Shown: piece by piece, positions 27,452-29,220 of the stretch | Position numbering within the stretch: position 1 is the stretch's first letter | Layout: every line of letters begins with the position of its first letter | Origin: Photorhabdus heterorhabditis | Lineage (GTDB): Bacteria > Pseudomonadota > Gammaproteobacteria > Enterobacterales > Enterobacteriaceae | NCBI RefSeq assembly: GCF_018448905.1 | Contig: NZ_RCWA01000040.1 | Location: forward strand, 1-38,737 | Direction: 5' to 3' | Length of the DNA: 38,737 nucleotides | Notes under the pieces: generated by a model | Told to the model about the DNA's origin: nothing | What the model saw: the letters and a program-made list of their open reading frames with translations, nothing else | The model's database searches: none | Position numbers and translations under genes: made by a program

Positions 27452-27470
27452 AATATAAAACAAAAGTAAA

Positions 27471-27500
27471 AGTAGGTTATTGTATGGATGATAACCTACT
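27471..27500 (+). terminator. Hairpin after menI
   Basis: AGTAGGTTAT (27471-27480) and ATAACCTACT (27491-27500) form a 10-bp stem 19 bp after the menI stop. A second hairpin at 27553-27580 (ATCCAGGAAATA against TATTCCCTGGAT) is followed by a T-rich tail and may be a back-up terminator. Confidence 0.55.
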
Positions 27501-27785
27501 ATTTAACTGAAAAAGTTATCCTTCACGGTAATTAAATTTAATTGTGATAGCCATCCAGGAAATATATATATTCCCTGGATCTTGTTGATATTTTTATAAT
27601 GTTATGGATTATTTGATTTTCTTATATATATCCGATGAATTTAAATGTTGAATTATATTAAGTAAATTAATGCTGGAATAGATAAAAACCTAATTGCAAA
27701 TTTTTATTTAAGTCTGTAAACGCCGATATATCAATTAATGCTAAAATTTCACCGGTTTTAATTTATGTTTAATTCCACTTAAATA
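27501..27785. other. AT-rich spacer between menI and the hok locus
   Basis: Apart from the hairpin at 27553-27580, this stretch of about 285 bp shows no coding frame or recognisable RNA. Confidence 0.5.
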
Positions 27786-27789
27786 TGAA

Positions 27790-27801
27790 GGGTGCCTGAG
27801 A
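27790..27801 (-). promoter_or_regulatory. fbi-like 3' element of the hok mRNA
   Basis: On the minus strand this reads TCTCAGGCACCC, complementary (with one G-U pair) to the first 12 nt of the inferred hok mRNA, GGGTGCTTGAGA (28180-28169). In R1 hok such 3'-to-5' pairing (fold-back inhibition) keeps the full-length mRNA inert until its 3' end is trimmed. Confidence 0.6.
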
Positions 27802-27826
27802 TCCAAGCCATAACAACATCTAAAAG

Positions 27827-27849
27827 GGCGGGAGTAAAAACCTCCCGCC
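27827..27849 (-). terminator. GC-rich hairpin just after hok
   Basis: GGCGGGAG (27827-27834) and CTCCCGCC (27842-27849) form an 8-bp stem. In the minus direction it is followed by CTTTTAG, 10 bp past the hok stop. It may be a terminator or a stability element in the hok mRNA 3' region; the fbi-like element lies beyond it, so read-through would be needed for full-length mRNA. Confidence 0.55.
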
Positions 27850-27858
27850 AAGGCTGCC

Positions 27859-28017
27859 TTACCTGTTGCTGGATTCGTAAGCCATGATTGCCGCAACCTC
27901 TGTATTACCTTGTTTGATATGGAGCTTACAGAGTGAACCTCTTGTTATCCATGTGAATAAGAGTAACGTCACACAAATAACGATCAAACTAAATATTACG
28001 ATTTTTTGTGGCTTCAT
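27859..28017 (-). CDS. hok: Hok-family type I toxin, 52 aa
   Basis: The translation begins MKPQKIVIFSLIVICVTLLL and ends EVAAIMAYESSNR. It has every Hok/Gef hallmark: a short basic N-terminus, one membrane helix (about residues 6-23) with the VICVTLLLFT pattern, R-GSLC with the conserved cysteine at 30, and the diagnostic EVAAxMAYES C-terminus. Length is typical (50-52 aa). Hok inserts in the inner membrane and collapses the membrane potential. ATG 28017 has an AAGGAG ribosome-binding site and overlaps the stop of a short leader frame. A cognate antisense RNA is encoded opposite. No stop or frameshift disrupts it, so it looks intact. Confidence 0.93.
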   Translation of the reverse strand: MKPQKIVIFSLIVICVTLLLFTWITRGSLCKLHIKQGNTEVAAIMAYESSNR

Positions 28018-28073
28018 AGCCTTCTCTCCTTGCTTTTTATCAGGTAAGAGGCTAGCCTTATGTTGTTCAGCAT
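28014..28073 (-). CDS. mok: Mok-like leader peptide coupled to hok, 19 aa
   Basis: The frame MLNNIRLASYLIKSKERRL ends in a TGA that overlaps the hok ATG (ATGA). In the R1 system, hok translation depends on translation of the overlapping mok frame, whose start region is the target of Sok. Here mok is short and ends at the hok start, where R1 mok runs on through hok. The sequence around it (GCCTCTTACC...AAGGAG) closely follows the R1 leader as I remember it. Confidence 0.65.
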   Translation of the reverse strand: MLNNIRLASYLIKSKERRL

Positions 28074-28120
28074 TAGGAGTAGCCTCATTTCGATTTATAG
28101 TCGGATGGGGCTTTTCTCTT
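28065..28120 (+). ncRNA. sok: Sok-like antisense RNA
   Basis: The plus strand has a promoter with -35 TTGCTT (28030-28035), 17 bp, and -10 TAGCCT (28053-28058), the same positions as the R1 Sok promoter relative to the mok start. The transcript would begin near 28065 and cover the mok start region. It would end at a hairpin (AGCCTCATTT against GGATGGGGCT, 28081-28111) followed by TTTTCTCTTT. The predicted length of about 56 nt is close to that of R1 Sok (64 nt). Ends are inferred. Confidence 0.65.
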
Positions 28121-28153
28121 TCTGCCTAGAACGTAATTTTCCTGGAACATCAT

Positions 28154-28200
28154 GCTTAAGACAGAAAGTCTCAAGCACCCGGAGGCAGTATACGTTTATT
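28154..28200 (-). promoter_or_regulatory. hok promoter and 5' (tac-type) hairpin
   Basis: On the minus strand a -10 TATACT (28192-28187) has a -35 TTGCAT 16 bp upstream, placing the start at about G28180. The first transcribed bases include GCTTGAGAC (28176-28168), which pairs with GTCTTAAGC (28162-28154) as the metastable 5' hairpin known in hok mRNAs. With the fbi-like 3' element, the mRNA would be about 395 nt; R1 hok mRNA is 398 nt. Confidence 0.6.
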
Positions 28201-28764
28201 CGCATGAGATGCAAGGTCTTGCAAATGTTTATTATAGTCACGTAATACGTTTGAATTAAATTAGTGGCTAATAAAGTTATTAATAGAATAAAGGAAAGGA
28301 TATTGAGAGCAGAGTATATAGATAAGATTATTCCTGAATGAGTTTATACCTGTTATCTTTCAAGTTGCTTCTTTGTTGGCTGCACTCACTCACCCCGGTC
28401 ACAGAATTGTCTATGCTCCCGGGGATTCGCTCTCTTGCCGTCGCGATGCATCTTGAAATCTATTGGGTATAATTGAATTAATTAAATAGAAACTTTATTT
28501 GTATATATTATAATCATAATGATAACTCTTGCTCTGCATTTCCGGTATATCTGAAAGTTCACCTTAAATAGTATCCCTAATGAACCTTTTGTGCTTTTAT
28601 TATGTGCTATTGAGTAAAAAATAGCACAATTGATCAAACTAATAATTTATAGATAAAACAGTAAATTAAAGAGATACCTTTCGTATGGGATGAACATAAA
28701 TCACAGCATTTGAATAAAATTTAATCTATTTAATGTATATCCTCTTAAAACAAATGGTTGAAGT
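28201..28764. other. Spacer between hok and suf with an ERIC
   Basis: About 560 bp with no supportable gene. It holds an ERIC at 28345-28471. The AT-rich remainder (28472-28764) is presumed to contain the suf promoter. Confidence 0.5.
28345..28471. repeat. ERIC element, 127 bp
   Basis: A full-length copy in reverse orientation, TATACCTGTTATCTTTCAAG to CTTGAAATCTATTGGGTATA, between hok and suf. Confidence 0.93.
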
Positions 28765-28783: not shown

Positions 28784-28851
28784 ATTATATGAGAGGAAAA
28801 GACTCTGATAACAGCGGCAGAAAATTGCCACAGAAAAATATGAGGCCAGCT

Positions 28852-29220
28852 ATGACAAATAGTGTTGAAACTTTCTCTCTGAATGAAACGATATGGCAAG
28901 GAATTACCATCACAGAGAGAGCCGCAGCACAGATCTTAAAATTGATGCAACAAAACCCACAAAGCAAAGGGTTATATCTGGGCGTTAAGCAGTCAGGATG
29001 TGCAGGCTTTGGCTATGTGTTTGAGATGGTTAATGATCCCGCACCTGATAATCTAAGGTATGAAAATGGAGGTGCATGTTTGTATGTTCCTCTGAAAGCA
29101 ATGCCATTTATTGATGGTACTGAAGTTGATTTTGTACGTGAAGGTTTAAATCAGATGTTTAAATTCAATAATCCAAAAGCTCAGCATGCCTGTGGGTGTG
29201 GTGAAAGCTTTGGTATATAA
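28852..29220 (+). CDS. sufA: Fe-S cluster carrier SufA
   Basis: An A-type carrier that accepts Fe-S clusters from SufBCD and delivers them to apo-proteins. Starting at MTNSVETF (28852, GAGG upstream) gives 122 aa, the E. coli length; an ATG at 28789 is in frame but lies at the Fur site and adds a non-conserved tail. The three cluster-binding cysteines are present: Cys50 in KQSGCAGFGY, and Cys114 and Cys116 in ACGCGESFGI. First gene of sufABCDSE, with the sufB frame following directly. Confidence 0.94.
   Translation: MTNSVETFSLNETIWQGITITERAAAQILKLMQQNPQSKGLYLGVKQSGCAGFGYVFEMVNDPAPDNLRYENGGACLYVPLKAMPFIDGTEVDFVREGLNQMFKFNNPKAQHACGCGESFGI

Follow-up and report, generated by a model that had tools for sequence, protein, structure and literature searches.

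A Hok/Sok-type module in Photorhabdus heterorhabditis

The stretch of DNA analysed here (the window) comprises 38,737 nucleotides of a P. heterorhabditis contig, and between positions 27790 and 28180 its minus strand almost certainly carries a chromosomal hok/mok/sok module, that is, a type I toxin-antitoxin system of the Hok/Sok family. For its expression, processing and toxicity, and for the action of Sok, we draw on what is known of the family. The features of the module are the following.

27859..28017, minus strand: hok, 52-aa toxin ORF (Pfam HOK_GEF, 74.5 bits; one match in its own genome)
28014..28073, minus strand: mok-like leader ORF, 19 aa (ATG at 28073 to TGA at 28014)
27790..28180, minus strand: predicted full-length hok mRNA, ~391 nt, with +1 at 28180 and the fbi end at 27790 (both ends predicted, from the RF01794 start, the 5'/3' pairing and the fold)
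28187..28192, minus strand: hok -10-like hexamer TATACT, 6 nt before the predicted +1 (read by eye)
28152..28178, minus strand: 5' tac-type hairpin of the 3'-trimmed RNA (predicted fold)
27827..27849, minus strand: GC-rich stem-loop with a T-rich tail, between the stop codon of hok and fbi; the trimmed RNA may end here
27790..27801, minus strand: fbi element, complementary to mRNA nt 1-12 (pairing and fold; some two-sided changes in relatives)
28030..28058, plus strand: Sok promoter-like hexamers TTGCTT and TAGCCT with a 17-nt spacer, 7 nt before the predicted start of Sok (read by eye)
28065..28123, plus strand: predicted Sok antisense RNA, ~59 nt (placed by K-12 sokC)
28065..28072, plus strand: predicted Sok recognition seed, nt 1-8

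The original prediction had described a 52-aa minus-strand protein with an EVAAIMAYES C-terminus and Cys30, and this protein is present at 28017-27859 (-). A homologue search with the 52-aa frame placed it in the Hok family (Pfam HOK_GEF, E 4.8e-21; 74.5 bits, cut-off 22 bits), and a search of its own genome returned this one Hok match. The HokA equivalog model of NCBIfam (NF007290) scored 74.3 bits, below its curated cut-off of 89, so the protein is to be called Hok and not the named HokA; the NCBIfam Hok subfamily model NF007279 likewise stayed below its curated cut-off (69.2 bits versus 73). The nearest named Hok relatives are from Photorhabdus, the closest matches being 98% identical. Together, the Pfam and Rfam matches, the reading frames, the pairing and the folds uphold the family, the architecture (hok, mok, antisense Sok position and fbi) and the intactness that had been claimed, and the module may be functional.

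Predicted hok mRNA and its folding

The leader of the module is matched by the Rfam model RF01794, named 'sok', at 28180-28012 (-) with 116.3 bits (gathering threshold 59). The Sok-family search that had been suggested as a check was thus positive, but the match lies on the hok strand and so marks the hok leader, not Sok. In E. coli K-12, too, RF01794 falls on the minus strand, over the leader of hokC, the annotated sokC being on the plus strand, and we therefore rejected the match as direct evidence of Sok. Because the model describes the hok-leader strand, an annotation copied from it would put 'sok' on the wrong strand.

The predicted mRNA is slightly shorter than the ~395 nt first proposed: the 12-nt complementarity between its ends stops at 27790, which puts the end at about 391-392. 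That complementarity had been claimed for the first 12 nt, and nt 1-12 indeed pair with nt 380-391 at 12/12 positions (11 Watson-Crick, 1 G-U), a result equalled in 2/200 shuffled 3' regions. Folding of 392 nt gave -146.2 kcal/mol (z -8.95), with the 5' end paired with the 3' end, in line with the expected interaction of fbi with the 5' end. When the last 35 nt were removed, the predicted fold left the 5' end free and contained a hairpin at mRNA positions 3-29, which agrees with the tac-type hairpin of the original prediction; the RNA would thus, by prediction, refold after 3' trimming. Both proposed promoters are hexamers read by eye, a consensus promoter scan having found none at the hok start or at the Sok start.

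Sok, mok and the proposed mechanism

Sok was positioned like K-12 sokC, a 59-nt RNA whose nt 1 lies opposite nt 9 of mok. With this placement, the antisense RNA claimed to lie opposite mok fits in position and in structure, the segment 28066-28125 being predicted to fold into a hairpin (-23.7 kcal/mol, z -5.4). Sok is said, in the title of a 1994 paper by Thisted that PMC8167048 cites, to contact hok mRNA via its 5' single-stranded end.

The short, overlapping mok frame had been claimed to stop exactly at the hok start, and it does so: it encodes 19 aa and ends in a TGA that, within the sequence ATGA, overlaps the start codon of hok. The relation of the two frames varies among modules, and the mok frame is not conserved. 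Among the 28 Photorhabdus modules scored, mok ends at the hok start in 11 and is in frame with hok in 15, with one out-of-frame overlap and one module having no mok. The 39 modules scored in other genera divide into 9 in frame (one of these stopping just before hok), 15 with an out-of-frame overlap, 10 whose start is GTG/TTG or lies nearer to hok, and 5 with none. For leaders L131-L133 and L136-L138 (G194b, G199, G120a, G074, G197 and G150), no mok frame beginning with ATG was scored in the 40-80 nt before hok; they have GTG/TTG, a start nearer to hok, or no mok at all, and may form a mok-less branch.

In the mechanism that we propose, hok mRNA would be made constitutively and be folded shut through the pairing of its 5' and 3' ends, until slow 3' trimming took off fbi and opened the mok start. 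While the module is transcribed, the short-lived Sok, encoded opposite the mok start, would pair via its 5' end with the trimmed mRNA and block mok and hence hok, whose translation would be coupled to mok here by the ATGA overlap. Once Sok transcription stopped, Sok would decay first, Hok would be made, and the cell's own inner membrane would be depolarised.

Conservation and genomic site in Photorhabdus

An RF01794 leader was found in 13/13 Photorhabdus genomes examined and a Hok match in 12/13. In G004 (L079), the sole genome of the 13 without a Hok-family match, there are two well-conserved hok leaders, and both toxins are truncated. The 5'/3' complementarity, which had been expected to persist in related strains, does so in most cases: among the 37 Photorhabdus leaders above the Rfam cut-off, 26 keep 12/12 pairs and 1 keeps 11. 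Of the other 10, 6 have a truncated toxin and 3 meet Ns or a scaffold join; in the last (G006, 654583) the toxin is full length but fbi is absent.

In Photorhabdus the hok site lies between a menI-like gene, next to ydiJ, and sufA. The gene next to ydiJ encodes a 1,4-dihydroxy-2-naphthoyl-CoA hydrolase and is called menI-like at 221.4 bits, against a cut-off of 226. Leaders stand beside menI and/or sufA in all 13 genomes, at 1-6 per genome; both flanks were seen in 11/13, one site is split between contigs and one stretch is without sufA. The site holds 33 leaders in total, 7 of them with truncated or broken toxins, including both copies of one genome. Two toxin subtypes, MKPQK and MKQQK, are common to it; they are about 50% identical, and the fourth 5'/3' pair changes between them from U-A to C-G. 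At a second site in G002 (L077) we found a hybrid, in which an MKQQK-type leader and a matching fbi surround an MKPQK-type toxin. An sRNA-Xcc1 match lies within the same stretch as L077. Outside Photorhabdus, with sufB located in 59/64 Hok-bearing genomes, no hok site between menI and sufA was found; among the Hok positions listed, compared by eye, only the Photorhabdus one is ≤20 kb from sufB.

Across many genera, 69 modules with a full-length Hok were compared, and at least 11/12 end pairs are present in 44 and fewer in 25. Two-sided changes among them affect pairs 4, 7 and 8 (U-A to C-G) and pair 9 (G-C to A-U). For the 17 distinct end pairs that reach this level, the mean number of pairs is 11.41 with true partners and 10.80 with swapped ones; the highest value among 5000 swaps was likewise 11.41, and the covariation signal is therefore modest.

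Some observations concern the surroundings of the window module. From the menI-like gene to the 3' end of hok (27452-27785), the window and G003 are identical over all 334 nt, even though their menI third codon positions differ at 14/139. The listed sufA ORF has ~21 extra N-terminal residues (28789-28851) ahead of the family match, and the true sufA start is probably near 28852. Positions 28344-28472 hold a 129-bp palindromic repeat with at least 48 matches in its own genome (40 of 517 candidates scored), of which at least 42, itself included, are full length at ≥94%; its matches to the Rfam families V_AS5 and Ysr49 were below thresholds. We take this repeat to resemble ERIC-type elements.

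It is very improbable that the window locus is a relic in decay, with a toxin or an antitoxin that has lost its function. Truncated or interrupted toxins do occur in those 7/33 same-site modules of relatives, and the window genome has a single copy, both of which would fit decay; but the ORF, mok, fbi and hairpins of the window are all intact, and, besides the 98% identity of the closest Hok matches, the window differs from G003 at 4 positions in the leader and 1 in the ORF.

Neighbouring copies in tandem arrays differ at the predicted Sok seed

When 22 leaders of the window's subtype were aligned, variation was concentrated in one block at the mok start, with almost no change on either side of it. 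After this Photorhabdus alignment, a fresh sample was taken, consisting of tandem arrays from other genera. The two copies of G082 have 3 differences over ~320 positions, all inside the variable block, and the leaders of the G021 triple array are identical except in this block. By seed we mean the 8 nt facing Sok nt 1-8. It differs in 39/40 neighbouring pairs (22 from other genera and 18 from Photorhabdus), and in the only pair with an identical seed, that of G006, the second toxin is broken. G120b, although not a close pair, is included in this count. Left out are G001, whose two subtypes are oppositely oriented, G011, which is divided over contigs, and one pair of G127 for which there was no anchor.

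The divergence is concentrated at the seed. In the other genera, 53/186 seed positions differ versus 169/3097 leader positions (Fisher P 1.6e-21), and in Photorhabdus 47/146 versus 215/2669 (P 1e-15). A scan without a preset window, over the 34 pairs that are ≥85% identical, had its maximum 8-nt window at the seed (0.294 versus a median of 0.040), tied with the window one base further upstream. Judging from predicted duplex energies, the 5' 12-mer of Sok would bind its own target at a mean of -17.5 kcal/mol and the targets of its neighbours at -8.0 kcal/mol, and each of the 120 non-cognate combinations whose seeds differ is predicted to be weaker by at least 3 kcal/mol. For duplexes of the whole 59-nt Sok, the gap (cognate -112 versus non-cognate -92 kcal/mol) is proportionally smaller than for the first 12 nt. 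The YUNR loop motif was not enriched in the seed target, being present in 20/54 distinct targets versus 18.4 by shuffling.

Selection, drift or mutation at the seed

We favour, with a probability of about 0.55, the reading that tandem hok/sok copies in Enterobacterales are held apart by selection on the Sok 5' end, so that the arrays are sets of orthogonal addiction modules. If this is true, a copy that keeps its parent's seed would be covered by the parent's Sok and be free to be lost or broken, a copy whose seed has changed by a few nt would be separately addictive and retained, and a small repertoire of seeds would recur across genomes and genera.

Seeds were compared with the upstream spacers of the same copies, and 110/312 seed positions differ versus 549/4712 spacer positions. 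The seed is shared in 1/39 usable pairs, where divergence at the rate of the spacers would predict 16.1 (P 2e-9); the pairs are not independent, 34 of the 39 being from Photorhabdus and 15 belonging to a single array, that of G012. When each array was represented by one pair, 0/11 share a seed versus 4.3 expected (P 0.001). The test dropped 23/62 pairs, in which the spacer was not homologous or there was no anchor; two of the dropped pairs share a seed, namely that of G006 (one toxin broken) and the first and third copies of G127.

Comparisons between genomes point to seeds that are kept as well as seeds that differ. In genus g10, four mutually best-matching copies in four genomes, their orthology resting on sequence and not on neighbouring genes, carry one seed, and further G209 copies differ. 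The triple arrays of G021 and G209 have identical sets of three seeds, each seed occurring once per array; outside the seed, 3 positions vary within mRNA nt 1-55 and none between nt 56 and the hok start. In the genera g10 and g57 plus the multi-copy genome G060 (51 loci, 45 of them in clusters at >88% identity, an 11-nt window around the seed being compared), co-resident copies of the same cluster share a seed in 0/19 pairs, versus 18/64 between genomes (permutation P 0.036; Fisher P 0.009 on pairs that are dependent).

A less probable, although serious, explanation is that the Sok seed is unconstrained and drifts neutrally while the rest of the module is under purifying selection. Because both strands change together, a changed seed still matches itself, so the site could drift freely, and several of our comparisons agree with this. 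At a leader divergence of <3% in Photorhabdus, seeds are shared in 3/14 between-genome and 2/10 within-genome pairs, which is no difference, and a permutation over 33 Photorhabdus modules found no deficit of sharing within genomes (3/40 pairs observed versus 1.05 expected); in one of these three sharing pairs there is an early-stop toxin and a scaffold join, in another a broken toxin, and the third (G012) is intact on both sides. In our first control set, only 2/13 between-genome pairs share a seed; two more pairs were without an anchor, three were unscored, G181 having given no leader, and the g10 pairs of this control set were rescored with more genomes in the comparison of g10, g57 and G060. 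Moreover, the window genome, G003 and G002, with one copy each at the site, have three seeds that are one base apart, and the G194 and G212 arrays have no seed in common. Neutral drift is opposed, however, by the faster divergence of seeds than of spacers, with 1 identical seed where 16.1 were expected, and by the absence of sharing within genomes (0/19) when 18/64 pairs share between them. It is unlikely that the pattern stems instead from a mutational mechanism acting locally where Sok transcription begins, for example transcription-associated mutation or template switching, which would make the seed hypermutable. The variable block does coincide with the predicted Sok start, and the changes often involve 2-3 adjacent bases, but such a process is at odds with the single seed kept by four matching copies in four congeneric genomes and with the same three seeds kept in the triple arrays of two genomes.

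Relation to known systems and significance

The hokC/mokC/sokC locus of E. coli K-12 (NC_000913) is like the window module in layout: RF01794 matches the hok strand, and Sok faces the mok start. The two also happen to agree in the first 9 nt of mok, which lie opposite the 5' end of Sok. They differ in that K-12 mokC is in frame with hokC and has a common stop with it, whereas the window mok ends where hok begins; the K-12 record also shows an IS186 directly downstream of hokC. The hok/sok system of plasmid R1 has the toxin type, the mok coupling and the 3' processing logic of the window module; R1 hok/sok is borne on a plasmid, whereas the window module is chromosomal, beside menI and sufA.

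A search of open-licence papers, through titles and abstract openings, returned no paper on seed divergence in hok arrays, a result that does not establish absence from print. One paper, cited in the zor/orz study PMC3919570, by its title reportedly addresses discrimination by Sib RNAs. According to a review, chromosomal hok/sok reaches up to 12 copies in some E. coli strains and its role is in doubt (PMC4147584). The closest parallel to the selection that we propose is the zor/orz tandem pair of E. coli O157:H7, in which a 3-nt block near the antitoxin 5' end was shown experimentally to decide which toxin mRNA is recognised (PMC3919570). The zor/orz pair is a published precedent for antitoxin specificities kept apart in tandem copies; like the hok arrays, it consists of tandem type I copies, but it differs in toxin family and layout, and specificity in hok arrays is inferred. 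The Hok-Sok system of Erwinia amylovora, chromosomal and outside E. coli, reportedly kills when over-expressed, and the available portion of its description reports no array, the words 'tandem' and 'copies' being absent from that text (PMC7821729).

Taken alone, the window module is ordinary, one further intact-looking chromosomal Hok/Sok in Photorhabdus; what merits further work is the array rule to which it led. That pattern is relevant to why near-identical chromosomal type I copies accumulate and persist, for which it offers a simple testable rule, namely that the seed changes or the copy is lost. In the arrays, nature also supplies groups of antisense RNAs a few nt apart, which could serve to measure how few bases set specificity.
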